Origin: Subtercola boreus
Lineage (GTDB): Bacteria; Actinomycetota; Actinomycetes; Actinomycetales; Microbacteriaceae
Direction: 5' to 3'
Assembly (NCBI RefSeq): GCF_003399635.1
Contig: NZ_NBXB01000015.1
Location: 1-64,000 of the forward strand
DNA: 64,000 nt
A program made the translations under genes and the position numbers. Under the pieces are notes generated by a model, which was not told where the DNA came from, did no database searches, and saw only the letters and a list, made by a program, of their open reading frames with translations. This document shows positions 7 through 23,909 of this stretch, piece after piece. The stretch's first letter is position 1. Each line of letters starts with the position of its first letter.

Positions 7-124
7 GTTTCGGCGGCCATAGCGAGAGGGAAACGCCCGGCAACATTCCGAACCCGGAAGCTAAGACTCTCAGCGCCGATGGTACTGCAAGGGAGACCTT
101 GTGGGAGAGTAGGACACCGCCGGA
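7..124 (+). rRNA. rrf: 5S ribosomal RNA
   Basis: The stretch has the conserved actinobacterial 5S sequence: the loop region around CCGAACCCGGAAGCTAAG, the CAGCGCCGATGGTACTGC segment, and a terminal stem pairing the 5' end (GTTTCGGCGG) with the 3' end (CCGCCGGAC). It is presumably the last gene of an rRNA operon whose 16S and 23S genes lie left of the window. The exact ends are uncertain by a few bases. Confidence 0.93.
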
Positions 125-135
125 CCCACATTAGA

Positions 136-861: not shown

Positions 862-1770
862 CTAGACGAGGCCGGTGTAGCTGTCCCAGGCCTCGGCGGG
901 GGCGGGGGCGACGTCATCCCGCAGCACGGTCGCCTGAATGAGGCCGTACGGCCGGTCATCTGCGTTGAAGACCTCGTTGTTGTTCTCGATGCCGAAGGGC
1001 GCGAGGTTGTAGAGGAAGTGGTGCTTGTTGGGTGCAGAGAAGCGGATCTCGACGATGTCGTCGAACTCTTCGAGCACAGCCTTGCCCATTTCGTAGAGGG
1101 TCTGCTGCAGGGCCAGGGAGTGCACGGTGGCGAAGGTGGAGACGAGGATCTGTTTGACCCCTGCGTAAACCGACTCCCAGCTCGTGGGCGTCCCACTGAA
1201 ACGCCACTGCGCGACGAGCGAGGTCGCCATGATGCGGTCGTTCGTGGGTTCGAGCACGGTGTACGGGTCCTGGTAGAACCCGGCGAACTCCGAGCCGGTG
1301 GACTTCAGGATGGTCAGGTCCTTGAACCCTGCGATCACCGTCGTCTCCCGGGTCGCTCCACGGCCGGTGACCGTGATGGCTGCAGTGCGGGTCTCCTGGC
1401 CCTGCCGGATCCACGTGTGGTCATGTTCGGCGCCGTCGACCAGCACGCGCTGCCAGGCGAACTCCTCGATCTCGACGCGGGCGCTGTCGATGTGCTCGAC
1501 GGTGTCGACGAGATGGCTGCCGAGGGTCATCCCGTAGTCCTCGATCGAGACGAGCCCCTTCTCCTTCGCGAAGGCGTAGGCGGTCTGCTTCTGGCTGTCT
1601 GTCGGCAACACCTTCGACTGGTCGCCGAACAGGTGGGCGCCGGCGAAATCGCCACGGAGCGCGGTCGACACGTTGATGTCGCGGATCTCGTGGCGAGCTT
1701 CGTCGCGGTAGATGCGCACGACCCGGCTCTCTGCTTTGCCGTACCGGTTGGGGCCAAGAACGATGGACAC
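862..1770 (-). CDS. pucL: urate oxidase (factor-independent urate hydroxylase)
   Basis: A 302-aa cofactor-free uricase, which oxidises urate with O2 to 5-hydroxyisourate and H2O2 in purine breakdown. Family marks include the N-terminal GPNRYGKAESRVVRI, the PTDSQK loop (Lys12 and Thr57 match the known Lys-Thr catalytic dyad), the LKSTGSEFAGF stretch near 155-165 and SAPNKHHFLYNL around 245-256 with the active-site His. Length equals that of typical bacterial uricases. The GTG at 1770 is chosen because AAGGAG sits 11-16 nt upstream, and longer versions read back into allB. The gene lies 13 bp behind allB, so the two are one operon. The separate HIU hydrolase and OHCU decarboxylase that usually accompany uricase are not in the window. 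Confidence 0.96.
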   Translation of the reverse strand: MSIVLGPNRYGKAESRVVRIYRDEARHEIRDINVSTALRGDFAGAHLFGDQSKVLPTDSQKQTAYAFAKEKGLVSIEDYGMTLGSHLVDTVEHIDSARVEIEEFAWQRVLVDGAEHDHTWIRQGQETRTAAITVTGRGATRETTVIAGFKDLTILKSTGSEFAGFYQDPYTVLEPTNDRIMATSLVAQWRFSGTPTSWESVYAGVKQILVSTFATVHSLALQQTLYEMGKAVLEEFDDIVEIRFSAPNKHHFLYNLAPFGIENNNEVFNADDRPYGLIQATVLRDDVAPAPAEAWDSYTGLV

Positions 1771-1783
1771 GGGGTGGGTCTCC

Positions 1784-3196
1784 TTAGGAGTGGGTGAGGG
1801 GAGGGGTGAGCAGGGCGCCGCGGAGGGCACGGGCTGCGACAGCTGGTTCACGGGAGAAGACGGGCACACCGGCCAACCAGGTGGCATGGACCACGCCGTT
1901 GAGCTCGGAGCCCTCGAACGCGGTGAGCTTGTTCTTGTGCTCGAGTCGATCGGCCTCGACAATGAAGGTCTCGTCGGGGGCGAAGGCGACGAAGTCGGCT
2001 GCAGCTCCGGCCACCAGAGTTCCTTTTTGGGAGAGGCCGACGAGGCGGGAGGTGCCGATGCACATCCAGTCGAGAACCCGTTCGAGCGGGATGTCCAGGG
2101 CGCGGGCGGCGCTCCAGACGGCGGGGAGGCTCACCTGAAGGCCCGAGATTCCGCCCCAGGCCAGACCGAAGTCACCGTCGTGGGCGAGCTTCAGCTCGCG
2201 GGTGCTCGGTGAGTGGTCGGAGGCGATGAGGTCGATGTCGCCGTCGAGCAGTGCCTGCCAGAGTGCCTCACGGTTGCTCTCCTCACGGATGGGCGGGCAG
2301 CACTTGTACTGGGTCGCGCCGTCGGAGATGTGCTCGGCGGCGAAGCTCAGGTAGTGCGGGCAGGTCTCCACGGTCAGGCGCAGACCCTCAGCCTTTGCGG
2401 CGCGGATGGCCGGCAGGGCGGAGGCCGCAGAGAGGTGCAGGATGTGAGCGCGTGCGCCGGTCATCCGAAGGCCCTCGATGACATGCTCGATCGCCGAGCG
2501 TTCGGAGGATTGGGGGCGGCTGGCGACGAAGTCCTCGTAGCCGCGGCCGCCGTCGTTCTCGCTGGCCGCGAGCACCGCCGGATCCTCGGCGTGAACGATG
2601 AGCAGGCCGTCGAACTCGGCGAGCTCGGCGAGGGCCCGGTGGAGCTGCTCGGTGCTGAGGTGCGGGAACTCGTCGACGCCCGAAGGGGAGAGGAAGGCCT
2701 TGAATCCGAACACCCCGGCCTCGTGGAGTGCCCGGAGCTGACCGAGGCTCGACGGGATCGCGCCTCCCCAGAACCCGACGTCGACGGTGGCCTGCCGGGC
2801 GGCTGCCGCGCGCTTCTGCTGGAGTGCATCCGGTGTCGTCGTCGGGGGAATGCTGTTCAGCGGCATGTCGATGATCGTGGTGACACCTCCGGCGGCCGCG
2901 GCCTTCGTCGCGCTGGCGAACCCCTCCCAGTCGGTGCGGCCGGGCTCGTTCACGTGCACGTGGGTGTCGACGATTCCGGGGATGAGCACCTGGCCGGCGG
3001 GGAGGGTCAGGTCTTCAGCGCTGTCGAAGGGCGCCGCGAAGTCGGCGACGGCCTGGACGATGCCGTCTGTGACGACGAGGGCGGCGGGGCGGAACGATCC
3101 GTCGACGAAGACGCGTTCGGCGCGAACGACGAGGTCGTAGCGCTGGGGGTGAGCCGCCTGGCCGCTGGCAGAGGAGGATGTGGAGTGTGGTGCCAT
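1784..3196 (-). CDS. allB: allantoinase
   Basis: A 470-aa amidohydrolase (dihydroorotase/hydantoinase group) that opens the allantoin ring to allantoate. Metal and active-site motifs are in the usual order: DTHVHVNEPG (78-87), GFKAFL with the carbamylated Lys166, VHAED (His202), HILHLS (251-256), ETCPHYL (277-283) and ASDHSPS with Asp327. KCCPPIR near 298-304 is typical of allantoinases. An N-terminal Ser/Ala-rich extension of about 18 residues precedes the conserved domain. It is the first gene of an operon with uricase. The divergent MetV-MetF-like gene begins within 45 bp, so the two share a very short promoter region, and no good ribosome binding site is seen before the ATG. Confidence 0.95.
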   Translation of the reverse strand: MAPHSTSSSASGQAAHPQRYDLVVRAERVFVDGSFRPAALVVTDGIVQAVADFAAPFDSAEDLTLPAGQVLIPGIVDTHVHVNEPGRTDWEGFASATKAAAAGGVTTIIDMPLNSIPPTTTPDALQQKRAAAARQATVDVGFWGGAIPSSLGQLRALHEAGVFGFKAFLSPSGVDEFPHLSTEQLHRALAELAEFDGLLIVHAEDPAVLAASENDGGRGYEDFVASRPQSSERSAIEHVIEGLRMTGARAHILHLSAASALPAIRAAKAEGLRLTVETCPHYLSFAAEHISDGATQYKCCPPIREESNREALWQALLDGDIDLIASDHSPSTRELKLAHDGDFGLAWGGISGLQVSLPAVWSAARALDIPLERVLDWMCIGTSRLVGLSQKGTLVAGAAADFVAFAPDETFIVEADRLEHKNKLTAFEGSELNGVVHATWLAGVPVFSREPAVAARALRGALLTPPLTHS

Positions 3197-3238
3197 AATG
3201 CTGGTGTCTCAACCTGACTTTCGAGGGGAGTGCTGCGC

Positions 3239-4432
3239 GTGACGATACAGGCTCCTGCAGAGTTCACGTGTCCGAAGGACATGGAGTACGGCCCGTGCGG
3301 TGGGGTGGAGTTCGACGGCAGTTGCGAGGTGTCGGAGCACCGGTGCGTGTTCGTGGATGCGGCGACCGTGCGTTGGCGGGGGGATGCGCCGGGCGGCGGC
3401 GGTCGTGCAGGTGACGGTCGCGCGGATGACGGTGGTGCGGGCGGCGTCATTGGAGCGAGAGGCGGGGGCGGTGCAGGTGGCGGCGTCGGCCTGAGCGCGG
3501 GCGGTGTCGCGATGCGCGAACTGCTGGCCGAGCGGCAGATCGTGGTGGCCGACTTCCCCGCGCGTGCGCTCGATGTCGCGTCGCTCGAGGAATGCGCCGG
3601 GGTGCTGGCCGGCCGCGTCGATGCGGTTCTGGCGGGGGACTCCGGGGCGGAGCGCGTGCAGTTCTCGCCCACCTACCGTGCCGCGCTCATCCAGAACCTG
3701 GGGCTGGCGGTGTGGAGCGGACTGAACTGCCGGGACCGCAACCGCGTGGCGATCGAGGGCGAGCTGGCAGGGCTCGCCTCCGTCGTGGTGGCCGGGGTGC
3801 ACTGTGTGACCGGAGACCACACCCTGACGGGTGGACGACCGGATGCCCGGCCGGTGTTCGATCTGGATTCGACCCGGGTCGCGGCGCTCGCACGTGCGGC
3901 GGGGCATCTCGTCTCGGTGGGGGAATCGCCCGCCACCCCGCCGGTGGCCGAGCGTGCCGCGCGGCTGGTCGAGAAGGCGAGGGCGGGCGCGGAGATCGCG
4001 TTCGTCAACCACGCGGGTGGGGTGCTGCCGGTGGCTCGGTTCATCGCCGAGGTGCGGCGGCTCGAGGAAGAAGCGGGGCTGCGGGAGGCCGGTGCGGGAG
4101 TCGGTGTGTCGGCTGCCGGCGTGGGGCTCCGCTATATCGCGTGCGTACCCGTCGTGATCGACCGGGGGAGCGCCGAACTGCTGAAGACGTTCACGACGCT
4201 GGTGCTGCCAGACGGCTACCTCGACCGCATCCTGGGTGCGCGCGACGTGTACGCCGAGGGCATCGCCGCAGCGATCGAGCTCAGCCAGGGGCTGCTGGCC
4301 GTCGAAGGGATGGTCGGGGTGAACCTCTCGGGCGGACCCGAGCGGGGTCGCGAGGTGTTCTTCGCGGAGGCGCTGGCCAGCATCTCCGACGGTCTCGGCC
4401 TGAGGAGCAGCCGAGCCGGCACGCCCGATTAG
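3239..4432 (+). CDS. MetV-like zinc-Cys domain fused to a methylenetetrahydrofolate-reductase-like barrel
   Basis: A 397-aa fusion. Residues 10-40 hold the MTHFR C-terminal (MetV-type) signature CPKDMEYGPCGG...GSCEV...RCVF, with Cys11, 20, 29 and 36 as likely metal or cluster ligands. A Gly-rich linker (about 48-90) leads to a MetF-like TIM-barrel with LNCRDRNR, a motif of methylene-THF reductases, followed by GEL.GL and TGDH. It likely handles a folate-bound one-carbon unit. The GTG at 3239 is preferred because GAGGGGAG ends 9 nt upstream, and a GTG at 3230 would overlap that site. It is divergent from allB and overlaps the convergent PdxH-like gene by 4 bp: TTAG holds both stops. One-carbon chemistry beside purine genes suggests use of formyl or methyl groups from a substrate, which is inference. 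Confidence 0.8.
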   Translation: MTIQAPAEFTCPKDMEYGPCGGVEFDGSCEVSEHRCVFVDAATVRWRGDAPGGGGRAGDGRADDGGAGGVIGARGGGGAGGGVGLSAGGVAMRELLAERQIVVADFPARALDVASLEECAGVLAGRVDAVLAGDSGAERVQFSPTYRAALIQNLGLAVWSGLNCRDRNRVAIEGELAGLASVVVAGVHCVTGDHTLTGGRPDARPVFDLDSTRVAALARAAGHLVSVGESPATPPVAERAARLVEKARAGAEIAFVNHAGGVLPVARFIAEVRRLEEEAGLREAGAGVGVSAAGVGLRYIACVPVVIDRGSAELLKTFTTLVLPDGYLDRILGARDVYAEGIAAAIELSQGLLAVEGMVGVNLSGGPERGREVFFAEALASISDGLGLRSSRAGTPD

Positions 4433-4998
4433 CCCGGCAGGATGACGGTGGTCCATGAGCCGTCGGTCTCCCGGGTGTGTTCGGTACGCTGGCTCGCAGT
4501 GTCAGGGCGACCGTGCCAGAGGGTGACCCGCCGCGGGCGGAGGAGGATGCCCGCCCACGTCTCCGGGGGCGTGAGGGCGCCGGGTTCGTGCGAGGTCGTG
4601 AAGGCCGCCCAGCGGGTGAGCCGGTCATCCAGAGCCAGCTGGGCGAACGCGGGATCGTTCAGGTGGGCGAGCACCTGCAGGTAGGGGGAGCGTTTCGCGT
4701 AGACGCGGGCGAGCGACGGCCCATCGGCGGATTCGGTGTCTCCGGTGACGGTGAGCTGGCGACCGAGCTCCGGCCAGGCGACGGTGAAGGAGGCGTGAGG
4801 GATCGCGGTGAGTTCGGCGATCTTACGGGAGCGGGAGTCGGTGTGGAAGAAGAAACCGCTGTCGTCGAACTCGCTCAGGAGAACGTGACGCACATCGGGG
4901 TAACCGTCGAGACCGATGGTCGACAGGGCCACGAGCGGCCGGGCGGGATCATCGTTGGCGGGGAGCCACTCGGCCAGTTCGTCGCCGAACGGGCCCAT
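4429..4998 (-). CDS. pyridoxamine-5'-phosphate-oxidase-family flavoprotein
   Basis: A 189-aa FMN split-barrel protein. It shows the PdxH-like N-terminal strand pair (ALSTIGLDGYPDVRHVLL), a phosphate-binding RSRKIAEL segment, and a C-terminal RPRRVTLWHGRPD block resembling the PdxH tail, though the full RLHDR end of true PdxH is not preserved. It may therefore be a vitamin B6 oxidase or a flavin/F420-dependent relative acting on another substrate. It is the last gene of the leftward catabolic operon: its ATG overlaps the TGA of the FAD oxidase gene (TGATG), which implies translational coupling. Membership in that operon argues for a catabolic role rather than housekeeping B6 synthesis. Confidence 0.75.
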   Translation of the reverse strand: MGPFGDELAEWLPANDDPARPLVALSTIGLDGYPDVRHVLLSEFDDSGFFFHTDSRSRKIAELTAIPHASFTVAWPELGRQLTVTGDTESADGPSLARVYAKRSPYLQVLAHLNDPAFAQLALDDRLTRWAAFTTSHEPGALTPPETWAGILLRPRRVTLWHGRPDTASQRTEHTRETDGSWTTVILPG

Positions 4999-6323
4999 CA
5001 GGTGACCTTGCCGGCGCCTGCTACGGCTTCCGCGCCTTCGGCAGGCAGCTTGCCCGGGTTGAGAAGGCCCTCAGGATCGGTGTCGCGAGCGAGGCGGCGG
5101 GTGCGCTCGACCTCGTGGTCGACCTCCCAGTGGTGCGGGTTGTGCGAGCCGACACCGATCGCGTCGAGCGCGGCGAACCCGGCGTAGACTTGCTCGGGGC
5201 TCTCGTAGATGCCGGCGAGCATGCCGATCGGGCGGCCGTGCTGTGCTTCGATGTGGAGCATTCCCCCGTTGTACACCGCGTGCACCTCGTCGATGCGCTC
5301 GACGAGCGCGTGGCCGGCGACTTCGATGTGGAAGTACTTTCCCGGGTCGCTCTTCTGCAGCCACTCGATGGGGTGGTTGTAGGAGAGCATGCTGATCTTC
5401 ATCGAGGCCTGCGGGCCTTCGCGCACGTCCTCGATGCGTCCGCCGGCGCCGAAGATCAGAGCGGTCGCCGCCTCGACCGTGGACTCGTCGAGGATGGCGC
5501 GGAGGCTGGCGCGGTCCGTCGGGATCGCGGCATCGTCGGGAAGGGCGTTCGCGAGCACGGGCAGGTCGGCCGAGACGAGGCGGGGGGTGGGTTCGAGGTC
5601 GCCGATCTCGCGGATGACGCTCAGCGCATCCTCGAATGTGTCGAAACTGGCGTAGAGGCCGCGCCAGTTCTGCAGGGGCTCGAGCTGGAGGGTGGCCCGG
5701 GCGATGATGCCGAGGGTGCCGTAGGTGTGCACGTAGGGTTCGGCGGCCTCGCCTTCGACATGGATGAGCTGGGCATCCGGAACCGCGTGCACCACGTCGA
5801 GCGCGGTCACGAAGCCGGTGTGGTTCGATCCGTGCTTGATCGAGCCCGTGCCACCCGATCCACCCGACAGGAAGCCGCCGATGGAGGACTGGGCCGTCGA
5901 GGGGTACATCAGGATCTGCTGGCCGGCGGCATTCGCGGCCTGCTCGATCATGACCATGGGTGTACCGGCCTCGACGGTGATGAAGCCGTCACCGACCTCG
6001 ATGACCCCGCGGGCCTTCGACATGTCGAGCACGAGGCCGCCCTGCATCGGGATGCCCTGGCCGTAGTTGCCGGTGCCCTTGCCTCGCGGCGTGATCGGCA
6101 CGTGGTGGCGGACGGCGGCGCCGATGACTTGGGCGATCTGCTCAGCGCTGGTGGGGAACGCGACGAGGTCGGCGAGGCCGATGGGCAGCTGGGCCATCAG
6201 GATGGGGGAGAGGTAAGCGCCGTCGACGGAGGCCTTCTCCCGGGCGCGGAGTTCGACGGTGACAGCCTTGTCGCCGAGCAGTTCGCGGAGTTCGGCGGCG
6301 AGAGCGTCTGTGTTGTTCGTCAT
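4998..6323 (-). CDS. FAD-binding oxidoreductase (GlcD/VAO type)
   Basis: A 441-aa flavoenzyme of the PCMH/VAO family. The FAD-pyrophosphate loop PRGKGTGNYGQG (79-90) and the second FAD motif SGGSGGTGSIKHG (153-165) are clear. A C-terminal substrate cap follows, ending in NPGKLPAEG, the typical LNPGK terminus. Such enzymes oxidise hydroxy acids, aldehydes or C-N bonds, and the substrate cannot be read from sequence. A RBS (GAGGAC) precedes the ATG. It lies 25 bp behind the creatininase-family gene and is coupled to the PdxH-like gene, so it belongs to the leftward operon with the SDR and ABC importer. It most likely oxidises an intermediate of the imported compound. Confidence 0.85.
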   Translation of the reverse strand: MTNNTDALAAELRELLGDKAVTVELRAREKASVDGAYLSPILMAQLPIGLADLVAFPTSAEQIAQVIGAAVRHHVPITPRGKGTGNYGQGIPMQGGLVLDMSKARGVIEVGDGFITVEAGTPMVMIEQAANAAGQQILMYPSTAQSSIGGFLSGGSGGTGSIKHGSNHTGFVTALDVVHAVPDAQLIHVEGEAAEPYVHTYGTLGIIARATLQLEPLQNWRGLYASFDTFEDALSVIREIGDLEPTPRLVSADLPVLANALPDDAAIPTDRASLRAILDESTVEAATALIFGAGGRIEDVREGPQASMKISMLSYNHPIEWLQKSDPGKYFHIEVAGHALVERIDEVHAVYNGGMLHIEAQHGRPIGMLAGIYESPEQVYAGFAALDAIGVGSHNPHHWEVDHEVERTRRLARDTDPEGLLNPGKLPAEGAEAVAGAGKVT

Positions 6324-6348
6324 GCGGATGTCCTCAGGTGGGTTCTGA

Positions 6349-7152
6349 TCAGGATGCGGAGAAGCCGATGCGCTTCTGCGGTGCGGCAGGGCTGAAGCGG
6401 GCGATCTCGGCGAGGGCGGCGGCGGCCTGCGTGACGTTGTTCTCGAAGTGCGCCCTGCCGAATTCGGCCGTGGCTGTCGTCGGGTCGCCGATCACGCCGG
6501 AGGGCGCGAAGTCGTTGCTGACCCAGCCGAAGCTCACCGGTTTGCCGAAACCGACGTAATCGTAGTCGAGCAGGTGCTCGGGCACGCTCCGAACGGCCAG
6601 ACTCATGTCGACGAGGTCGGGGCGGAGGTGGAGCACGACGCTCGTCTCGACGTGTCCGCCGTGGATGCCGAGGCCCGATTCGGTCTCGCCGGACTTCGCC
6701 CCGCCGTTCGCGGGCATCTGTCCGCCGATGAGGAAGGTCTGCAGGCCGAACCGGCGGCGGAGCTCCCGGCAGGCGACCTGCAGCAGGGCGACGTTGCCGC
6801 CGTGGCCGTTATAGAAGACGAGCTTGGTGCAGGGCGTCTGGGCGATGGACTCGCCGATCTCGACGATCGTCTGCATGAGCGTCTCCCAGCTCAGCCAGAC
6901 GGTACCCGGCGCCCAGTGGTGCTCGTCGGATTTCGTGTAGGCCAGGCCCGGCAGCAACCACGCGTTGACGCCGTCGGCGGCGGCGAGTTCGACGGCGGCC
7001 TTCGCCGACTCTTCGGCGACGAGGAAGTCGGTCGAGAGCGGCAGGTGCGGTCCGTGGTGTTCGATCGCGCCCGTCGGCAGCACCACGATCGAATCCTGGC
7101 GGAGGGCTTCGACGGCGGCGAGACTGGAGAGTTCGACGAGGTTGCGGGGCAT
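6349..7152 (-). CDS. creatininase-family amidohydrolase
   Basis: A 267-aa metal-dependent hydrolase of the creatininase fold. The binuclear metal ligands are all present: GAIEHHGPHLPLSTD (28-42, with Glu31, His33 and Asp42), NGHGGN (115-120, His117) and the GIHGGHVETS block (162-171, with Glu169). The family includes creatinine amidohydrolase, an FAPy-type deformylase and the mycofactocin peptidase MftE, so opening of a cyclic amide is likely but the substrate is not proven. It sits between the SDR and the FAD oxidase in the operon and has an AAGGAC RBS. Together with the cytosine/creatinine-deaminase-like first gene, it points to a creatinine, hydantoin or similar ring compound. Confidence 0.85.
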   Translation of the reverse strand: MPRNLVELSSLAAVEALRQDSIVVLPTGAIEHHGPHLPLSTDFLVAEESAKAAVELAAADGVNAWLLPGLAYTKSDEHHWAPGTVWLSWETLMQTIVEIGESIAQTPCTKLVFYNGHGGNVALLQVACRELRRRFGLQTFLIGGQMPANGGAKSGETESGLGIHGGHVETSVVLHLRPDLVDMSLAVRSVPEHLLDYDYVGFGKPVSFGWVSNDFAPSGVIGDPTTATAEFGRAHFENNVTQAAAALAEIARFSPAAPQKRIGFSAS

Positions 7153-7219
7153 GTGGTGGTCCTTGCGGTGGTGATGCGGGGTGGTGGCGAGGGAGGGGAA
7201 CGAGCGGCGGGCGGACTGC

Positions 7220-8008
7220 TCAGTGCATGATCATGCCGCCGGTGACGTTGATGGCCTGCCCGGTGAGGTAGTCGGCATCCGAGCTCGCGAGGAAGGTGGC
7301 GACACCGGCGACATCCTCCGGCTGGGCGAGGCGGCCGAGCGGGGAGTAGCTCGACCATTCCGCGACATCCGCCTCTGTGCGGGTGGCCGCACCCATCTCG
7401 GTGAGCACATAGCCGGGGCAGATGCAGTTGGCGGTGATCGCCTCGGGGCCGAGTTCGAGGGCGGTGACGCGGGTGAGCGCGATGACGGCGGCTTTGGATG
7501 CGGCGTAGTGGGCCTGGCCCGCCCCACCGGTCTTGCCGCCCATGCTGGCCATGTTGACGATCTTGCCGGGAGCGGTACTCGCGTCAGCCTGGCCGCCCTG
7601 GCGCTGGGCGATCATCCGTTTCGCCGCCACCTGGGTGGTGACGAGCATGGCCCGGGTGTTGATCCGGAACATCGTGTCCCAGTCCTCGGTCGTGATCTCG
7701 AGAAGGGGAGCGAAACGCAGGATGCCCGCATTGTTGACGAGCACGTCGATGCCGCCGAGCGAGTCGATCGCCTCGGTGAGCACGGTGCGGGTGTCGGCCT
7801 CGTCGGAGAGGTCGACACGGAAGAAGGAGGCGCCGATCCGGGCGGCGGTTGCGGCACCCGGACCTTCGAGCAGGTCGAGGATCGCGACATCCGCGCCCTC
7901 CGCAGCAAAGCGGCTGGCGATGGATGCCCCGATCCCCCGGGCTCCGCCGGTGACCACGATGCGTCGTCCTTTCAGGCGCGCGGTGGGCACCAGCGAAGCG
8001 TCGGTCAT
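7220..8008 (-). CDS. short-chain dehydrogenase/reductase (SDR)
   Basis: A 262-aa classical SDR. The cofactor motif TGGARGIG (20-27), the NNAG element (92-95), catalytic Ser155 and the YAASK motif (Tyr168, Lys172) are all intact, and PGYVLTEM follows as usual. Asp45 in VAILDLL at the end of strand 2 favours NAD(H) over NADP(H). It starts 4 bp after the stop of the ABC substrate-binding protein gene and is followed 67 bp later by the creatininase-family gene, so it acts in the same catabolic operon, oxidising or reducing an intermediate that cannot be identified from sequence. Confidence 0.88.
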   Translation of the reverse strand: MTDASLVPTARLKGRRIVVTGGARGIGASIASRFAAEGADVAILDLLEGPGAATAARIGASFFRVDLSDEADTRTVLTEAIDSLGGIDVLVNNAGILRFAPLLEITTEDWDTMFRINTRAMLVTTQVAAKRMIAQRQGGQADASTAPGKIVNMASMGGKTGGAGQAHYAASKAAVIALTRVTALELGPEAITANCICPGYVLTEMGAATRTEADVAEWSSYSPLGRLAQPEDVAGVATFLASSDADYLTGQAINVTGGMIMH

Positions 8009-8012
8009 CGGA

Positions 8013-9182
8013 CTACTTCAGACCGATGGAGGTGTCGATGAACTCGTTCGTGAAGATGTCACTCGCGACGAGTCCGGTCCTCACGGCCTTGCCACCGGCG
8101 GCGTAGATCGGGGTGTCGACGTCGATGATCTTCTGCACGTTCGCCTCGTCCATGTCGCCGATGGTGCTGTTGTCGCCGTTGCCGACGATGCCGAGGTCCT
8201 TCTGGGTCTTGACCGAGTAGTCGGCCATGCCCTGCGAGTAGACCCAGCCGGTGTTGAACTGGGTGACCAGGTCGAGGATCAGCGTGTTGACCGCGTCGGG
8301 GCTGTCGAAGTAGTCGACCTCCGCCTGCTGCAGCACGGGCACGAGCGCCTTGAGGCAGCCCGAGAGCTTCTCCTTGTCACCCGTCTTGATCGAGACGGCG
8401 GATGCGTAGACCGGGTATCCGGCGTCACCGATCGTCTGGTAGTTCACGGCCTTGCCCCAGGCCGGCACCTCGTACTGGTACTGGTACGGCTCGGCGCTGG
8501 CGAAGCCCTGCTGGCCCGCCTTGCCCTGGTCGGCGACGAAGCTGGCGGGGGTGCCGTCGTAGCTGCCGTCGGTCTGGTCCTTCGAGAGGAGACCGGCACT
8601 GATCAGGTACTCCATGTAGGCCGAGCCGCCGAAGTAGCGAACGATCGCACCGGTCTTGCCGAGGTCGGCGATCGTCTTGACGTCGGGGTAGGTGGCCGGG
8701 TCCCACATGATCATCAGCGGGGTCTTGTCGAGCGGCGCGAAGACGGCCGTGGTGGGCTGGTCTGCCGAGAGCTGAACGGCCTCATCGGTGGTGACGTAGC
8801 CGAGGGTGATGCTCGGGTCTGCGTACAGCTGGCTGGTCACGGTCTGGAAACCGATGGCCGGGCCGCCCGAACGGATCTCGACGTTGACGCCGGTCGACGC
8901 GCCCTTGGAGTACAGCGGGCCGGAGACCGACTTCTTGTTGGCGTCGATGACCGGGTTCGGGCCGAGCAGTTCGTACAGGTGGCCGTGCTCGGCCTCCGGG
9001 TTCCAATCGGTCTGGATGACGACATTGGCGGGGCAACCGGCCGCGGCCAGGTCCACTCCGCCGGCGGCGGCGCTCGCCGCGGGGGTGCTTGCTGCGCCAC
9101 CTGAGCTGCAGGCCGCGAGGGCGGCCATGCTCAGAACGGCAAGGCCGCTGGCGAAAGCGACTCTCTTGGACTTCTTCAGCAT
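8013..9182 (-). CDS. ABC transporter substrate-binding lipoprotein (NMT1/nitrate-taurine-type family)
   Basis: A 389-aa lipoprotein. The signal peptide ends in the lipobox LAAC with Cys25, followed by SSGG, so the protein is tethered to the outer face of the membrane. The mature part resembles binding proteins of the NMT1/SsuA class, which capture small nitrogenous or sulfonated molecules, and pairs with the adjacent nitrate/sulfonate-type permease and ATPase. The ATG at 9182 is chosen for its AAGGAG RBS and because the signal peptide starts there; the open frame runs further upstream but looks non-coding. A hairpin in the gap to the permease gene may help adjust relative expression. The ligand is unknown; a purine, pyrimidine or cyclic amide fits the neighbours. 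Confidence 0.88.
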   Translation of the reverse strand: MLKKSKRVAFASGLAVLSMAALAACSSGGAASTPAASAAAGGVDLAAAGCPANVVIQTDWNPEAEHGHLYELLGPNPVIDANKKSVSGPLYSKGASTGVNVEIRSGGPAIGFQTVTSQLYADPSITLGYVTTDEAVQLSADQPTTAVFAPLDKTPLMIMWDPATYPDVKTIADLGKTGAIVRYFGGSAYMEYLISAGLLSKDQTDGSYDGTPASFVADQGKAGQQGFASAEPYQYQYEVPAWGKAVNYQTIGDAGYPVYASAVSIKTGDKEKLSGCLKALVPVLQQAEVDYFDSPDAVNTLILDLVTQFNTGWVYSQGMADYSVKTQKDLGIVGNGDNSTIGDMDEANVQKIIDVDTPIYAAGGKAVRTGLVASDIFTNEFIDTSIGLK

Positions 9183-9247
9183 GAGTTCTCCTTGGGATGG
9201 GTGCAGGTGCTGTGCTGTGCGGATGGTGCTGGTGGGACAGTTGTGGG

Positions 9248-9274
9248 CCGGATGACCGGGGGACGGCCATCCGG
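9248..9274 (-). other. intercistronic hairpin between permease and binding-protein genes
   Basis: CCGGATG and CATCCGG form a 7-bp stem with a 13-nt loop in the 106-bp gap of the ABC operon. There is no T-tract, so an mRNA-stability or processing element raising binding-protein expression is more likely than a terminator. Confidence 0.4.
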
Positions 9275-9288
9275 AGCCGCGCTCGGAA

Positions 9289-10176
9289 TCAGCTGAAGTC
9301 GTACCACGTGCCGACGGCGCGCCGGCCGAGGAGGCCGAAGAGCCAGAAGACGAGAACACCGAAGAGCGCCGCGGTGATGATCGTCGCGAAGAGTTGTTCA
9401 CCCTGCAGACGCGAGCTGTAGTTGCTGATCAGGATGCCGAGGCCCGGGGTGCCGCGGCGGAAGAACTGGTCGCCGACGATCGCACCGACGACCGCGAGGC
9501 CGGCGGAGATGCGCATGCCGGCGAAGATCGCGGGCAGGGCTGCCGGAAAGGAGAGCTTGGACAGTGTGGTGAAACGGCTCGCGCCCTGGAGCTTGAACAG
9601 CTCCCGGTGGCCCTTGTCGACGGACTGCAGGCCGAACAGGGTGTTGTTCACCATCGGGAAGAGGGCGATCATCACGCAGACGAGCACGCGCGACTGGAAC
9701 TCGTACCCGAACCAGAAACCGATCAGCGGAACGAGAGCCAGGATCGGGATGCACTGCAGGATGACGGCGTAGGGGAAGAGGGAGCGTTCGATCCATTTTG
9801 CCTGCGACATGGCGATGGCCCAGACCACACCGATCACGATGGCGATCGCGAGGCCGAGCATTGAGACGATGACCGTCTGCCAGAGCGCCACGATGAGGGC
9901 GTTGAAGGAGAGCGGGTCGATGAACCCCTTCAGCACGATGTCCTGGGGCAGGGGAAGCAGGAACCGCAGGTTCGGGTTCAGTACAAAGAGGCTGATCAGG
10001 TACCAGACGGCCACGATCACCAGGAAGACGATGAGCGGCGGCAGCCACGTGGTTCTGCGACGCTTCCTGCTCGTCGGCTTCGCGACGGTCGCGGTGACGG
10101 CGAGCCCGGGTGTCGGGTGCGCCTCGAGCTCGTCTGTTCCGTCGGTCACTGTCTTTTCGTTCGAGATGGTGGTCAT
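9289..10176 (-). CDS. ABC transporter permease (SsuC/TauC type)
   Basis: A 295-aa integral membrane protein with about six hydrophobic helices (the first near residues 46-66) and a charged N-terminal cytoplasmic extension of about 40 residues. The EAA-type loop that docks on the ATPase is visible as ELFKLQGASR...FPAALPAI near 195-215. It belongs to the BPD_transp_1 family of nitrate/sulfonate/taurine/pyrimidine-precursor importers. Its start overlaps the ATPase gene end by 4 bp (ATGA), so the two are translationally coupled, and the binding-protein gene follows after 106 bp. Confidence 0.9.
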   Translation of the reverse strand: MTTISNEKTVTDGTDELEAHPTPGLAVTATVAKPTSRKRRRTTWLPPLIVFLVIVAVWYLISLFVLNPNLRFLLPLPQDIVLKGFIDPLSFNALIVALWQTVIVSMLGLAIAIVIGVVWAIAMSQAKWIERSLFPYAVILQCIPILALVPLIGFWFGYEFQSRVLVCVMIALFPMVNNTLFGLQSVDKGHRELFKLQGASRFTTLSKLSFPAALPAIFAGMRISAGLAVVGAIVGDQFFRRGTPGLGILISNYSSRLQGEQLFATIITAALFGVLVFWLFGLLGRRAVGTWYDFS

Positions 10177-10958
10177 GAGTGGCCGTGTCCCTTCCGGAGT
10201 GCGTGAGCGACTTCGCCGACGAGCGCGGCGTATTCGGGGGTGAAGCGGATCTCGGGATCGCGGGGCTGGGGGAACGGCACGTCGAAGGTCTCGACGATCT
10301 TGCCGGGCCGACCCGACATGACGACGACCTTCGTCGACATGTAGACGGCCTCGGAGACGGAGTGGGTGATGAAGAGCCCGGCGAACTGCTTCGCGTTGAA
10401 CAGCCTGATGAGTTCGTCGTTGAGGCGCTCGCGGGTGATCTCGTCGAGCGCTCCGAACGGTTCGTCGAAGAGGAACAGCTCGGGGTCGAGGGTGAGAGAG
10501 CGTGCGAGGCTCGCGCGCATCTTCATACCGCCGGAAAGGGCTTTCGGCAGGTGCTTCTCGAAGCCCTTCAGGCCGACGAGGTCAATCGCGTCCTTCGCTT
10601 TCGCGGCGCGATCCTTCTTGCTCTCGCCGTGCAGCTCCGCGAGGAGTTCCACGTTCGCGGTGACGTTCCGCCAGGGCAGCAGTGTCGCATCCTGGAAGAC
10701 GTAGCCGATGCGATCGGTGCCGAGGGCCACGGTGCCGTCCGAGGCGGTCTCGAGCCCGGAGGCGATCCGGAGCAGGGTCGACTTGCCGCAGCCCGAGGGG
10801 CCGACAACGGTGACGAACTCGCCGCGCTTCACGACGAGATCGACACCCTGCAGGGCGATGGTGCCATCGGGGAACGTCATCTCGACGTTGGAGAAATCGA
10901 GGAGGGTGTCCGACTTCGCGTGGGTGGGGGCATTCGGTGCGGGTGCTGTGACAGTCAT
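10173..10958 (-). CDS. ABC transporter ATP-binding protein
   Basis: A 261-aa nucleotide-binding subunit. The Walker A GPSGCGKST (53-61), Q-loop in YVFQDATLLPWR, signature LSGGMKMR (a variant of LSGGQ), Walker B LFLFDEPFGALD and the switch His in FITHS are all present. The TLLPWRNV stretch is characteristic of SsuB/TauB/NrtD-like ATPases. It energises the permease encoded by the overlapping next gene. It starts 5 bp after the stop of the deaminase-like gene, with a GAGGTAG RBS, and so is cotranscribed with it. Confidence 0.92.
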   Translation of the reverse strand: MTVTAPAPNAPTHAKSDTLLDFSNVEMTFPDGTIALQGVDLVVKRGEFVTVVGPSGCGKSTLLRIASGLETASDGTVALGTDRIGYVFQDATLLPWRNVTANVELLAELHGESKKDRAAKAKDAIDLVGLKGFEKHLPKALSGGMKMRASLARSLTLDPELFLFDEPFGALDEITRERLNDELIRLFNAKQFAGLFITHSVSEAVYMSTKVVVMSGRPGKIVETFDVPFPQPRDPEIRFTPEYAALVGEVAHALRKGHGHS

Positions 10959-10963
10959 TTCAG

Positions 10964-12241
10964 CTACCTCGTTTCCACTAGTGACGGGTGGTGTGCGGGC
11001 GTGGGCTCGGCGACGTTGTAGCTCACCGTGCTCTGGGCGACAAGCATGCCGGCGTGGATGACGTATCGATCGGCGGAGGCGTTCGCGACGGCGTCGGAGA
11101 GGTTGGTGGCGCGCACGGCGAGGAATTCGGCGCGGGCACCCACGGCGACGCCGGCGACCGGGAGTGCCATGACGTCTCGGGCTCCGTCGGAGACAGCCGT
11201 GTAGGCCTCGTCGAGGGTGAGGTGGCCGGCGATCACCAGCAGGGAGGCCGTCTCCAACGCGTCGCTCCGGCCGACCGGATTGAAGGGGTCGCGCACGTTG
11301 TCTGCACCGGCGGCGAATCGGATGCCGCGCTCGAGCACGGCACGGGCCGCGGTCAGCCCGCGCGGAGTCGACACCGGGTGCTCCCAGCCCTGCAGGTAGA
11401 GGTTCGTGATCGGGTTGCTGATGATCCCCATGTTCGAGGCCTCGACCTCGTCGAGAACGTCGGCAAGTGCATCCGGTGCCAGCGTGCCGAGGCGCACGCA
11501 GTGGCCTGCGCTGCGGTTGCGCTCCGCGGGCCAGTCGCGAACCTCCCGGGCGAACTCGGCGAGGGTGAGGGCGCCTTCCAGATTCTCGTCGGTGTGGATG
11601 TCGACACCGACGCCCTTCCGTTCGGCGAGGCGCAACAGGCGCTGGAGGTCGGCGCTCGGGTCGAGGGCGAGGTGCGGGGAGCCACCGACGAGGTCGACAC
11701 CGAGATCGATGGCGGCTTCAATGTCGGCGTCGGGAACGTCGGAGCCGGCGAGAGCGACGAGTTCGATGTCCATCAGGCCACGGAGCTCTTGGCGCACCTG
11801 CACCAGTGCGCGCACACCCCGGAGCGGTTCGTCGCCCAGCAGGATGTCGACGTGACTCCGCACGGCGGTCGTTCCCTGGCGGAGCATGAGGAGGGCCGCG
11901 GTCTTGGCCCGTTCGGCGATGCTCTCGGTCGACATCGTCGCAGCGTAGGCGCGCCAGGCCAGGATGGCCGAGACCAAGTCGCCCATCGGCGGGTTGATGG
12001 CGTCCCAGGAGAGCGCCTTGTCGAGGTGGGCGTGCGGGTCGGCCGGGGCCGTGAGCAGCAGGAAGCCGGTCAGGTCGATCGTCGCGCCGGGTTCGGGCGA
12101 TGCCGCGTCTGACGTCACGTCGAACGAGTGGGCGGGTGCAACAGCGGCGACGGTGTCGCCATCCAGAAGCACATCGCAGGTGGATCCGTCGGGCAGGGTC
12201 GCGTTCTGCAACAGGGTGACCCTCAGCGGAAGAGTATTCAC
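10964..12241 (-). CDS. cytosine/creatinine-deaminase-like amidohydrolase
   Basis: A 425-aa metal-dependent hydrolase of the CodA group. Metal and active-site motifs are ADPHAHLDKAL, SHVDI, DIHTDEN, GHCVRLG and GADNVRDPF, matching the HxH, His-x-x-Glu, His and Asp positions of cytosine deaminase. Family members deaminate cytosine, creatinine (to N-methylhydantoin), isocytosine or related cyclic amidines. The GTG at 12241 has AGGAG 11 nt upstream; an in-frame GTG at 12265 is the alternative. It is the first gene of the eight-gene leftward operon and faces the divergent XRE-cupin regulator across a 181-bp region with a palindromic operator candidate. Neighbouring creatininase and oxidases suggest catabolism of an imported ring compound rather than pyrimidine salvage. 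Confidence 0.82.
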   Translation of the reverse strand: MNTLPLRVTLLQNATLPDGSTCDVLLDGDTVAAVAPAHSFDVTSDAASPEPGATIDLTGFLLLTAPADPHAHLDKALSWDAINPPMGDLVSAILAWRAYAATMSTESIAERAKTAALLMLRQGTTAVRSHVDILLGDEPLRGVRALVQVRQELRGLMDIELVALAGSDVPDADIEAAIDLGVDLVGGSPHLALDPSADLQRLLRLAERKGVGVDIHTDENLEGALTLAEFAREVRDWPAERNRSAGHCVRLGTLAPDALADVLDEVEASNMGIISNPITNLYLQGWEHPVSTPRGLTAARAVLERGIRFAAGADNVRDPFNPVGRSDALETASLLVIAGHLTLDEAYTAVSDGARDVMALPVAGVAVGARAEFLAVRATNLSDAVANASADRYVIHAGMLVAQSTVSYNVAEPTPAHHPSLVETR

Positions 12242-12422: not shown

Positions 12423-13079
12423 ATGACACCCGTCACCGAGGCACTCGACACTCAGACCCGACAGCTGGGAGCGGCCATCCGTGCTGCCCGGCTTTCGAAG
12501 GCGTTGACGCTCGTCGAACTGGCCCGCCTGGCCCAGCTGTCGCACCCGTTCCTCTCGCAGCTCGAGCGCGGCCACGCCCGGCCGAGCATGGCATCGCTCG
12601 AGCGCATCGCCCGGGCTCTCGAGACCAGCCAGCTCGACCTGCTGGCCGGCGCGGCGGACCTCGCGACCGACGATCCGGAGCTGCTCTGGGGGCCCGTGAC
12701 CGTGACCGCCGGAGCCCTGGTGCCGCCGGTGCGTCTGCCGCGCCGCGCCGAGGTCGTACGGCGGGACGAGGGCACGACCGGCCCCTACGCCGAGGGCAGC
12801 GCGCGGTTGCTGGTGGGTGCCCGCGCCCGGTTCCAGCCGATGGAGTTCACCGGGGCGAATGTTCTGTTCGGGGATTTCTACCACCACGCGGAAGACGAAT
12901 TCGTCACCGTCGTCGAAGGTAGAGTCGTGGTCGACCTCTCCGGTGACGGCGAATTCGTGCTCGGCTGCGGCGACTCGGTGTACTTCGAGGGCGGCACTCT
13001 GCATCGTTGGCGTTCTGCAGGCGAGGGTACCTACCGGCTGCTGATCGTGAAGCAGCGTTTTCAGAAAGAGCAACCGTGA
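12423..13079 (+). CDS. XRE-family transcriptional regulator with cupin sensor domain
   Basis: A 218-aa regulator. An N-terminal helix-turn-helix of the XRE/SinR type spans about residues 15-70 (LGAAIRAARLSKALTLVELA, then LSHPFLSQLERG), and a C-terminal cupin domain spans about 145-213 (HHAEDEFVTVVEG, LGCGDSVYFEGG, LHRW). Such proteins sense a small ligand in the cupin pocket and usually repress adjacent catabolic genes. GGAAGGAGG sits just before the ATG. It is divergent from the eight-gene operon, with a palindrome between them, and its TGA overlaps the GTG of the ferredoxin-reductase gene (GTGA), coupling regulator and reductase. It is the prime candidate for controlling this island. Confidence 0.9.
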   Translation: MTPVTEALDTQTRQLGAAIRAARLSKALTLVELARLAQLSHPFLSQLERGHARPSMASLERIARALETSQLDLLAGAADLATDDPELLWGPVTVTAGALVPPVRLPRRAEVVRRDEGTTGPYAEGSARLLVGARARFQPMEFTGANVLFGDFYHHAEDEFVTVVEGRVVVDLSGDGEFVLGCGDSVYFEGGTLHRWRSAGEGTYRLLIVKQRFQKEQP

Positions 13080-14041
13080 ACGTTCATCCCCTGCCATCCG
13101 TCGATGTGATCGTGACCGACCGGCAGAGTGTCGCCGACGACATCCTGTTGCTGACCCTGGCCGCCGCGGACGGCGGCGACCTGCCGGAGTGGAGCCCGGG
13201 TGCGCACCTCGATCTGATGCTGCCGAACGGCATCGAACGACAGTATTCGCTGTGCTCCGACCCCGCCGACCGGAGCATCTGGCAGGTCGCGGTGCTCCGG
13301 GAGAGTGGGGGGCGGGGCGGATCCGAGTTCGTGCACGCGACCCTGGCCGTCGGTGAGACCCTGCGGGTACGGGGGCCGCTGAACCACTTCGCGTTCGAGG
13401 CGGCCTCCTCCTACGTCTTCGTGGCGGGCGGGATCGGGATCACACCGCTGCTGCCGATGATCCGCGCGGCCGCGGGGGCCGGTGCGCCCTGGACGCTGGC
13501 CTACGCGGGGCGGTCGGAGGGATCGATGGCCTTCGTGCGGGAGTTGGTGGGCGAGCATCCGGAGCACGTCAGTGTGTACGCGAGCGAGGCGGGCGAACGT
13601 CTCGCGCTCGACGACCTGTTCGCTGCGGCTCCCGCGGGCGAGCTGGTGTACTGCTGCGGTCCCGCCCGGCTGCTGGATGCGGCCACCGCCCGCTCGACGG
13701 AGCTCGGCTGGCCGGCGGGGCGACTTCACCTCGAGCGTTTCGAGGCCAAGGAGACGGGCGCACCCGTGCTCGCCGACGCGTTCGAGGTCGAACTGGAGTT
13801 CTCGGGGCTCACGCTGACGGTCCCGCCGGAACGGAGCATCCTCGATATGGTCGAAGAAGCCGGGGTGCTCGTGCTGTCGTCGTGCCGCGAGGGAACGTGC
13901 GGCACCTGCGAGACGCCTGTGGTCTCGGGTGAGGTCGACCACCGCGACTCGGTGCTGACGCCCGAGGAGCAGGCCGACAACGAGGTCATGATGATCTGCG
14001 TGTCGCGGGCGGCCTGTGCGAAGTTGGTGCTGGAGCTCTAG
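13076..14041 (+). CDS. phthalate-dioxygenase-reductase/VanB-type ferredoxin oxidoreductase
   Basis: A 321-aa electron-transfer protein with three modules: a flavin-binding barrel (RQYSLCS), an NAD(P)-binding domain (GGIGITPLLPM, CCGPARLL) and a C-terminal plant-type 2Fe-2S domain with CREGTCGTC and a final Cys in MICVSRA. It passes electrons from NAD(P)H to a Rieske non-heme oxygenase, typically a demethylase or ring hydroxylase. The GTG start at 13076 overlaps the regulator stop by 4 bp; the longer open frame reads back through the regulator. No Rieske oxygenase gene is in the window, so the partner is encoded elsewhere or this reductase serves another oxidase. The gene ends 168 bp before the convergent amidohydrolase gene. 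Confidence 0.9.
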   Translation: MNVHPLPSVDVIVTDRQSVADDILLLTLAAADGGDLPEWSPGAHLDLMLPNGIERQYSLCSDPADRSIWQVAVLRESGGRGGSEFVHATLAVGETLRVRGPLNHFAFEAASSYVFVAGGIGITPLLPMIRAAAGAGAPWTLAYAGRSEGSMAFVRELVGEHPEHVSVYASEAGERLALDDLFAAAPAGELVYCCGPARLLDAATARSTELGWPAGRLHLERFEAKETGAPVLADAFEVELEFSGLTLTVPPERSILDMVEEAGVLVLSSCREGTCGTCETPVVSGEVDHRDSVLTPEEQADNEVMMICVSRAACAKLVLEL

Positions 14042-14208: not shown

Positions 14209-15549
14209 TCAGAGGGCGTGGCGGGCTGCGAGGAGCGCCTCGAGGTCGGCCGCGATGGTGCGCTCGTCGTGGCCGACGAGCTGGTAGTCGCGCACGACCA
14301 CGCGGCCGGCCACGACGACGTGCTTCGGGCGCCGGCCGGGGTTCGCCCAGAGGAGGCCTGCGACCTTGTCGGCGACGGCTGCGTCGGCCACGCCCGAGAC
14401 GTCCCAGACGCAGAGATCGGCCGCGTCGCCCGGCGCAAGGGAGCCGAGTTCGGGCCGACCGAGGCCGAGGGCCGAGCCCTTGGTGGCCAGGCCGAGCACC
14501 TCGCGGGCGGGGATCGGCGCTCCCACCAGCGGCGCGATCTGCATCGCCAGCCGGGCGTCGGCGAGCAGGTTCGAGGCATCGTTGCTGCCGCCGCCACTCG
14601 TGCCGAGGCCGACGGCGATCCCGGATGCCCGGAGTGCCGCCACCGGCGCGATGCCCCAGCCCATCGGGAGGTCGCAGGCCGGGGCGTGCGTCGCCGTCAC
14701 GCCACTCGCTGCCAGGCGGGCGATCTCGTCGTCGGTCACCGCGCAGAGGTGAGCGAGAGTGACGTCGGGGGCGAGCCAGCCCCAGTCGTCGAGCAGGTCG
14801 ATCGGCCGCCGGCCGTACTTCTCGAGGGCGATCACCACGTCGACCTGTTCATTCGCCTGCGTGCGTCGTCGGAGCCCGTGGCGAGCGGCCACTTCGCCCA
14901 GCAGCCGGAACGTCTCCGGGCTGTCGCTGTGCACGCCCGCGGGGCCGACGGCCACCTGCAGCATGCCACCGTGCCGAATGCCGCCGCGCGCACCGGGCAC
15001 GAGGGCTGCCGCGATCGCCTCCGCGGAGAGGGCGGCCTGCTCCGCATCGTCGCGCGCCGACCCGCGCACGAAGACCAGCCGGGCTCCGAGGTCGACGGCG
15101 GCGCTCGCGGCGGCCCGCGCAATGCCGACGGTCAGGTCGATGTCGGTGTTGACGGGCCCGCCCGGCCAATTCAGGTGGTGGTCGGCGACGGTCGTCACGC
15201 CGCTGAGGAGGCTCTCGGCCAGCCCGGCGCGGGCCGCGGCATATTCCAGCTCGGGATCTATGCCCACACGCGCATATTCAGCGGCCATGGTGGGGAGCCA
15301 GGATGCCATCGGCACTCCCCGCGTGCCCGGCAGGGTGCGGAACGCGGTCTGCAGCAGGTGGTGGTGGGCGTTGACGAGACCGGGGGTGACGATGCATCCG
15401 GAGGCGTCGAGGGTGTCGAAGGTCTCTTCGTCGGTGCCGGCGTGGCGGGCATCCGGAGCCGAGACGACAGCGTTCTGCAGGAACAGGTCACCGCTCGATT
15501 CGGTTTCGTCGTCGACGAGGATGGCGAGGGCGTGGTGAACGGTGAGCAT
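14209..15549 (-). CDS. 8-oxoguanine-deaminase-like amidohydrolase with altered metal site
   Basis: A 446-aa protein of the guanine/8-oxoguanine deaminase and triazine hydrolase group. The N-terminal NAHHHLLQT (60-68) with two metal His, HL near 267, and the GWGIAP segment (297-302) are conserved. Two expected ligands differ: the usual HxHxxE reads RTQANE (Gln231 at the metal His, Glu234 kept), and the usual VDG Asp reads TSG (Ser318). A Thr at that Asp position is known in triazine hydrolase TrzN, so activity may persist. Context beside xdhC and xanthine dehydrogenase supports conversion of an oxidised or amino purine to urate or xanthine, but the reaction is uncertain. It is divergent from xdhC across 68 bp. 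Confidence 0.75.
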   Translation of the reverse strand: MLTVHHALAILVDDETESSGDLFLQNAVVSAPDARHAGTDEETFDTLDASGCIVTPGLVNAHHHLLQTAFRTLPGTRGVPMASWLPTMAAEYARVGIDPELEYAAARAGLAESLLSGVTTVADHHLNWPGGPVNTDIDLTVGIARAAASAAVDLGARLVFVRGSARDDAEQAALSAEAIAAALVPGARGGIRHGGMLQVAVGPAGVHSDSPETFRLLGEVAARHGLRRRTQANEQVDVVIALEKYGRRPIDLLDDWGWLAPDVTLAHLCAVTDDEIARLAASGVTATHAPACDLPMGWGIAPVAALRASGIAVGLGTSGGGSNDASNLLADARLAMQIAPLVGAPIPAREVLGLATKGSALGLGRPELGSLAPGDAADLCVWDVSGVADAAVADKVAGLLWANPGRRPKHVVVAGRVVVRDYQLVGHDERTIAADLEALLAARHAL

Positions 15550-19844: not shown

Positions 19845-20644
19845 GCGAGCTCCTCCAGGATCTCAGCGGCCAGCAGGGCGCTCACACTCCGGCGCCAGTC
19901 GGCGGCACCGTGCGCGTCCGTGAACCATTCGGTGATCGCCAGCACATCGGCAGCGAGCTGGGCGGCGGCGGGCAGGGTCTCGTAGCGCAGCTGGAGGGGG
20001 CGAACCGTGCCTGCGGTCACGGTGAGCACGAACGCACCGGCGGGGGAGCGCCGTCCGAGCAGTACGGCCCCGGAGCGGCCGAGGGGCGAGAGGGCGATCT
20101 TGCGGAACGCGACGCGGGAGAGCAGCGATTCGAGCGGCACGGTGATCGAGCGCAGAACGTCGCCGGGCTCCAACACGGTCGTCTTGTTGCCCGTGATGAA
20201 CCGGGTGACGGGCATCCGTTCGTCGCTCCCGTCGGCCCGCCAGACGAGCGCTTCACCGTCGAGGGCCGAGGTGAGGGAGGTCATCGGGCCGGCGGGAAGG
20301 GCGGCGGAGAGGTTGCCGCCGACGGTCGCGACGTTCCAGACCTTGAACGAACCATAGAGTGCCGTGCAGCATTCGAAGAAGGCGTGCTGGGCGGCCCAGC
20401 CCGGCTGCTGGGGGAGACGCGAGAGCTCGGCGAGCGTGCAGGTGGCAGCGATCTCGAGGCCGTCGGCGGTGACGGTGAGGGACGGCCAGCCCATCGTGAG
20501 CAGGTCGACGATGGCGGTGAGGTGGTGCTGCGGCTCGCCGTAGAGAGCGGAGCCGCCGGCCAGGGGGGCGACCGTCGGCCCGAGAACGGCGAGGTCGGCG
20601 CGGGTGCGGGCGGGAATGACGTCGGCGACGGTGTTGAGATCCAC
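19841..20644 (-). CDS. xanthine dehydrogenase FAD-binding subunit
   Basis: A 267-aa subunit of the CoxM/XdhB family that transfers electrons from the iron-sulfur clusters to FAD. FAD-contact motifs are APLAGGSALYG (about 26-36) and TVGGNLSAALPAGP (about 107-120); the C-terminal CO-dehydrogenase flavoprotein domain follows. The start is GTG at 20644 with AGAAGGGG upstream. The stop overlaps the start of the large subunit (ATGA), so the two form one operon. The 157-bp gap upstream, behind moaE, should hold the promoter. Confidence 0.9.
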   Translation of the reverse strand: MDLNTVADVIPARTRADLAVLGPTVAPLAGGSALYGEPQHHLTAIVDLLTMGWPSLTVTADGLEIAATCTLAELSRLPQQPGWAAQHAFFECCTALYGSFKVWNVATVGGNLSAALPAGPMTSLTSALDGEALVWRADGSDERMPVTRFITGNKTTVLEPGDVLRSITVPLESLLSRVAFRKIALSPLGRSGAVLLGRRSPAGAFVLTVTAGTVRPLQLRYETLPAAAQLAADVLAITEWFTDAHGAADWRRSVSALLAAEILEELA

Positions 20645-20801
20645 GGTGGCCCCTTCTGCGGGTCGTACGCGCCCGCTCCGCGAGGGAAGGCGGGCGGGAC
20701 CGGCCCAGCGTAGCGCGGGCCTTGGGTTCCAGTGAACAGCAGAAAGATGACGAATGTGTAAACCGCGCCGCGCGGACGGGAGCGTGCGGCGCGGGCGGGC
20801 G

Positions 20802-23808: not shown

Positions 23809-23894
23809 GGTTCCATCCTGCCGCACTCCTCCGACACTCCGGGAGCGGGCTCTCAATCTGTGGTGCGGGGGACTCCGGCACCCGGATGCCCTTC

Positions 23895-23900: not shown

Positions 23901-23909
23901 GGAATGACT

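Follow-up and report, generated by a model that had tools for sequence, protein, structure and literature searches.

Folates and pterins are shed by all kinds of cells. The pterin deaminase Arad3529/CodAch2 of Fan et al. (2013) is reported to start a pterin pathway, as yet undescribed, of an Agrobacterium, and our literature search found no account of bacterial pteridine-ring opening. Other described systems that we compared are the Rut pathway for uracil, the ThiY/ThiXYZ importer of formylaminopyrimidine, the purine-oxidation operons headed by xanthine riboswitches (PMC7373994), and the structures 6v42 and 6v43, the former deposited in the PDB under the title "flavin oxygenase ... involved in folate catabolism". 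Here we analyzed a stretch of 64,000 nucleotides from Subtercola boreus (the window; positions 1 to 64,000 of contig NZ_NBXB01000015.1, assembly GCF_003399635.1), which carries a set of eight genes on its minus strand at 4429-12241. This set is a real, conserved operon, and it is an actinobacterial variant of a widespread module whose flavin adenine dinucleotide (FAD) enzyme has a crystallized relative. The operon very likely serves to degrade a pyrimidine-containing heterocycle, and the most likely substrate, with moderate confidence, is a pterin or folate-type ring that would be taken up and broken down aerobically by oxidative and hydrolytic steps.

In transcription order the operon encodes a CodA-like amidohydrolase (12241-10964, Amidohydro_3), a candidate pterin-type deaminase whose GTG start at 12241 matched its relatives better than 12265; an ABC importer ATPase of the taurine/nitrate type (10958-10173, ABC_tran; best NCBIfam match TauB-like and below cut-off, 187 versus 357 bits); the importer permease (10176-9289, BPD_transp_1); an NMT1/ThiY-type substrate-binding lipoprotein (9182-8013, ATG start at 9182); an SDR oxidoreductase (8008-7220, adh_short_C2); a creatininase-family metal hydrolase (7152-6349; PF02633, 220 bits); the FAD enzyme (6323-4998, FAD_binding_4); and a PdxH-like split-barrel flavoprotein (4998-4429, PNPOx_N and PNP_phzG_C), a candidate flavin reductase or side-chain oxidase. 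The intergenic distances were 5, -4, 106, 4, 67, 25 and -1, with overlaps between the ATPase and permease genes and between the FAD-binding and PdxH-like genes. Codon composition was coding-like throughout, and the Pfam search confirmed seven of the eight proteins, all but the binding protein. The coordinates, strand and parts given by the first-pass annotation, eight contiguous genes on one strand with small gaps or overlaps, were thus upheld. Among the NCBIfam rows shown, none of the eight proteins passed an equivalog cut-off; the PdxH-like protein failed the PdxH test (92.3 versus 180 bits), and the SDR passed only a broad subfamily (PRK07231, 220.8 versus 215 bits).

The genomes of 60 relatives were searched with the creatininase-family protein, and 19 of them gave any match. 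Close copies (89-99%) were present in 10 of the 11 same-genus genomes; outside the genus, copies of 62-67% were found in 3/25 family genomes and one of 55% in 1/23 order genomes, and the best matches in the remaining genomes did not exceed 42%. All eight genes occurred in identical order in 9 of the 11 same-genus genomes (63-99% protein identity), the recurrence for which the first-pass annotation had suggested looking. A tenth same-genus locus (L033) was interrupted by a contig end, and the search returned no close copy of the block in the genus member G003. This recurrence of gene order within the genus shows that the block is not a product of chance. At loci L036, L037, L038 and L039, from four further genera, the creatininase-like and FAD genes were swapped; no SDR gene was seen in L037 or L038, and the SDR is therefore not a constant part.

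Wider occurrence was determined by a scan with an alignment of the FAD enzyme, using one genome per species. The best 80 of 496 loci were taken, and partners were counted if they lay no more than 10 kb from the FAD gene and scored at least 45 bits; these counts are lower bounds, as some contigs were short. The 80 loci came from Actinomycetota, Bacillota, Pseudomonadota, Acidobacteriota, Verrucomicrobiota and Cyanobacteriota. The FAD gene had a creatininase-like neighbor in at least 51, an amidohydrolase gene in at least 44, and all three importer parts in at least 48; creatininase-like gene, amidohydrolase gene and complete importer stood jointly beside it in at least 32. RidA was found in at least 17 loci and a reductase-like part (flavin/quinone reductase, PDR or PdxH-like) in at least 36. 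The FAD enzyme, the creatininase-like hydrolase, an NMT1-type importer and the CodA-like amidohydrolase recurred together in Actinomycetota, Bacillota and Pseudomonadota, and no CodA-like amidohydrolase was found at the loci of Acidobacteriota and Verrucomicrobiota. An acidobacterial cluster (L062) contained a CocE-type hydrolase, with relatives in 13 loci by sequence clustering. Importer, creatininase-like, FAD and amidohydrolase genes also appeared together on annotated plasmid records of Salipiger, Palleronia, Sulfitobacter, Klebsiella, Rahnella, a Comamonadaceae and Rhizobium, and the Agrobacterium plasmid record (L126) listed no amidohydrolase at the module. In an even sample of Actinomycetota the FAD family was rare (1/296 at E 1e-60), and the actinobacterial form is distinct in carrying PDR and PdxH-like proteins, sometimes the SDR and a MetV-MetF-like protein, and purine-oxidation neighbors. 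The earlier statement that no operon of this composition had been described stood in that we found no paper on the gene set or on a pathway in this form; it did not stand as to rarity, given a core present in several phyla and an FAD enzyme with a solved folate-catabolism relative.

The logic of the module resembles that of the Rut pathway, which likewise combines an importer, a flavin oxygenase with a separate reductase, a hydrolase and RidA, the last found in part of the proteobacterial modules. RutA presumably has another flavoprotein fold than the window FAD enzyme, and none of the operon genes matched a Rut family in the NCBIfam rows listed. Two side observations concern the FAD gene itself. 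In 18 cyanobacterial loci it stood mostly without partners (a creatininase-like gene in 3, an amidohydrolase gene in 2; L061, L086, L093 and L122, for example, had no importer or amidohydrolase beside it), and a Variovorax genome with one module locus (L097) had a second, module-like set (L166) that comprises genes for amidohydrolase, RidA, PDR, flavin reductase, binding protein, FAD enzyme and permease.

Over its full length the window FAD enzyme matched PDB 6v42 in both sequence and fold. TGNYGQ (84-89), H317, H357-x-E359 and P396-H397 were invariant across 32 aligned rows of the family, the window protein included, and the 6v42 row showed the matching stretches GTGNYGQ, NH, HLE and NPH. Judged by its sequence, the window enzyme belongs to the 6v42-type flavin oxygenase family. 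The crystallized protein itself shares about 65% identity with module members from Alphaproteobacteria, and the core genes surround most of its 63-67% relatives among the sequences at hand. RidA and, in most cases, a flavin/quinone reductase accompany them there, whereas the window has the PDR, PdxH-like, SDR and MetV-MetF-like proteins.

The two hydrolases bear on the substrate that the first-pass annotation had proposed, creatinine, N-methylhydantoin or a related five-membered ring, for which the joint presence of a creatininase-family protein and a CodA-type deaminase could speak. The creatininase-family protein retains E31, H33, D42, H117 and E169, which we take to be the metal ligands of creatininase. 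However, it failed the NCBIfam equivalog test for creatininase (91.3 versus 235 bits), as it did that for MftE (131.4 versus 172 bits), and it lacks the equivalents of E122, W154 and W174 of Pseudomonas creatininase: NGHGGN replaces NGHYEN, and neither loop has a Trp. The residues mutated in the 3a6 crystal series of creatininase, which differ among its chains, were not retained. By these residues and scores it is a metal hydrolase of the family and not a creatininase proper. Since, in addition, the binding protein is of a pyrimidine-binding type and the FAD enzyme is a relative of 6v42, both pointing to pyrimidine- or pterin-type rings, a creatinine or methylhydantoin substrate is very improbable, and this tempting reading is corrected here. 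The more general claim of N-heterocycle uptake followed by ring breakdown held as a class, in that the parts fit import, hydrolytic and flavin steps and recur together as a conserved module.

The amidohydrolase scored closest to the cytosine deaminase/amidohydrolase subfamilies of NCBIfam, at 56-176 bits against cut-offs of 340-483. It retains H78, H80, H224, E227, H255 and D322 of the CodA site, presumably the metal ligands and catalytic Glu of that type, and lacks the CodA substrate loop: AFPQEG is changed to ALAGSD, with loss of the Gln, and the second Asp of HDD is replaced by Asn323. An HLDK motif was present in 26/28 module amidohydrolase rows and one additional paralogue, and in 0/7 rows of CodA type. 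Arad3529/CodAch2 has likewise been named a CodA homologue.

The binding protein alone had no Pfam match. It aligned with a set in which 23 of 34 members match NMT1, and its best solved relatives were ThiY and a thiamin-bound protein, which places it by sequence and fold in the NMT1/ThiY family. It shares with ThiY 18% identity in the model alignment, and its neighbors, unlike those of the ThiXYZ importer, look catabolic. The ThiY relationship would also suit breakdown of a thiamin-type pyrimidine (hydroxymethylpyrimidine, formylaminopyrimidine) or another modified pyrimidine. Two Paenibacillus loci have upstream genes read as thiM, thiD and thiE, the thiD of L069 scoring above cut-off, which would suit thiamin pyrimidines too; PreA-like, PreT-like and dihydropyrimidinase genes in L062 would fit a modified pyrimidine. 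Among the three Bacillota loci inspected by eye, however, the third (Cohnella, L058) had no thi genes, and no thiamin pyrophosphate riboswitch reached the gathering score in 27 loci or in window positions 1-25000. PMC7373994, moreover, sets the NMT1-type genes found close to xanthine riboswitches apart from those of thiamin. We consider breakdown of a thiamin-type or other modified pyrimidine improbable.

Somewhat less improbable, though still unlikely, is import and breakdown of an oxidized purine (a urate-, 8-oxoguanine- or allantoin-like ring) that would feed the adjacent uricase/allantoinase genes. The operon is flanked by urate oxidase and allantoinase (AllB) genes (862-3196, minus strand), conserved neighbors that score above cut-off (TIGR03383, 339 versus 168; TIGR03178, 542 versus 358), and on its other side by a further conserved neighbor, the gene of an 8-oxoguanine-deaminase/triazine-hydrolase-like amidohydrolase (14209-15549, minus strand; PRK08203, 261 versus 532, below cut-off; nearest solved structure the triazine hydrolase 3ls9), beyond which lie an XdhC-like and then an Xdh-like gene. 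In Nocardioides (L057) the 8-oxoguanine-deaminase-like gene stands directly behind the creatininase-like gene (crn). The acidobacterial module L062 adjoins genes for dihydropyrimidinase (497/393 bits), PreA (653/335), a PreT-like and an XdhC-like protein and a hydantoinase/carbamoylase-family protein (298/204), with urate oxidase (300/168 bits) on its other side. A xanthine riboswitch (63.4 and 61.8 bits versus 36) was found in Klebsiella (L025) and Rahnella (L125), where a purine-oxidation operon of the kind in PMC7373994 adjoins the module, and precedes a binding-protein gene and then an amidohydrolase gene, divergent from the module. These riboswitch-led operons occupy 1-1383 of L025 and 806-4404 of L125; the latter includes a PRK12393-type amidohydrolase gene (804 versus 543 bits) and adds a 2-oxoglutarate-Fe(II) oxygenase gene. 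No ATPase or permease of its own is among the L125 features listed, and it may therefore share those of the module. Yet the riboswitch heads the neighboring operon and not the module, it was absent from the 25 further loci scanned (2/27 overall) and the first 25 kb of the window (1-25000) had no riboswitch match, uricase was present in only 16/50 genomes carrying the FAD gene, and the FAD relative 6v42 was deposited as folate catabolism. A substituted pyrimidine ring is common to pteridines, purines and thiamin pyrimidines, so that a pteridine substrate agrees with each of the three contexts and is proved by none.

Several observations weigh against a pterin or folate substrate, among them the thi genes and the scarcity of uricase given above. 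A folate or pterin substrate may be carried over to the window FAD enzyme across only 27% identity with 6v42, and the branch that leads to the actinobacterial FAD clade is long (1.45 changes per column), so a change of substrate along the way is possible. The literature search yielded no paper on 6v42, the folate role being that of the deposition title. Four of the 12 loci nearest 6v42 had no creatininase-like gene, three of them also no importer in the stretch, and no creatininase-like gene was found at the Klenkia locus (L046). In a tree of 28 module amidohydrolases and 8 others, chosen among the sequences at hand, separation of the module rows from cytosine deaminases as a clade of their own was not established (p-AU 0.474). 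In three or more genomes (those of L097, L099 and L113), moreover, the window amidohydrolase scored higher with a paralogue located elsewhere than with the module copy.

Gene content, conservation, part families, the fold matches of the FAD enzyme and the binding protein, and module co-occurrence were observed, and from these we infer the substrate, the order of steps and each reaction in Subtercola boreus. For a pterin substrate, the ThiY-like importer would take up an oxidized folate fragment such as pterin-6-carboxylate or hydroxymethylpterin, and the CodA-like amidohydrolase would strip the 2-amino group to leave a lumazine-type dione. The SDR and the PdxH-like protein may act on the side chain or provide reduced flavin, the FAD enzyme would oxygenate the ring, its electrons being supplied by the PDR reductase or by reduced flavin, the creatininase-like metal hydrolase would open the cyclic amide formed, and the fragments would pass into the adjoining purine/allantoin genes. 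A conserved multi-phylum module with one crystallized member and defined enzymes makes pteridine-ring opening directly testable and, if it is true, scattered genes that now bear the labels 'cytosine deaminase', 'creatininase' and 'FAD-binding oxidoreductase' could be renamed jointly.

Convergent with the operon lies the gene of a MetV-MetF-like protein (3230-4432, plus strand; DUF5981). The protein had no match to PF02219 (Pfam MTHFR) up to E 5, and some relatives passed it (L046 33.0, L036 28.6 versus 24). Aligned with E. coli MetF it retains GD (D196) and does not retain the Glu of FEFFPP, both of which we take to belong to the catalytic site. No Pfam MTHFR match was found in the Subtercola boreus genome (99.97% complete), nor at E 0.001 in 12/40 relatives' genomes; four other genomes had a strong MTHFR plus the MetV-MetF-like copy at the locus. 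The gene is convergent within the genus. In L039 it immediately follows pdxH and shares its strand, and in L046 it is flanked by the PDR gene and by the amidohydrolase gene, which it overlaps, all three being on one strand. These last two placements tie it to the function of the module in part of the actinobacteria; none was seen at L037 or L038. The first-pass annotation had made this protein the putative recipient of a one-carbon unit from the pathway. A complete actinobacterial pathway of pteridine-ring opening, in which this protein without the MTHFR catalytic glutamate readies reduced or one-carbon-bearing folates for destruction and products enter the adjacent uricase, allantoinase and xanthine-dehydrogenase genes, is a tentative and rather doubtful extension. 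If true, it would unite folate recycling and purine oxidation at one locus.

Divergent from the operon is an XRE-cupin regulator gene of conserved position (12423-13079, plus strand; HTH_3 and Cupin_2), followed by that of a PDR/VanB-type NADH-[2Fe-2S] reductase (13076-14041, plus strand, start approximate; Fer2 and a flavin-binding domain), a homologue of which is listed within the Klebsiella and Rahnella modules. Farther out, at 16968-25019, are the Xdh-like gene with fused small and large parts, a separate FAD subunit gene, and genes for MoaE, a MoCF_biosynth protein, MoaC and MoeA, with MoaA of this molybdenum-cofactor set on the opposite strand. A 5S rRNA gene is located at the very start of the window (9-125).

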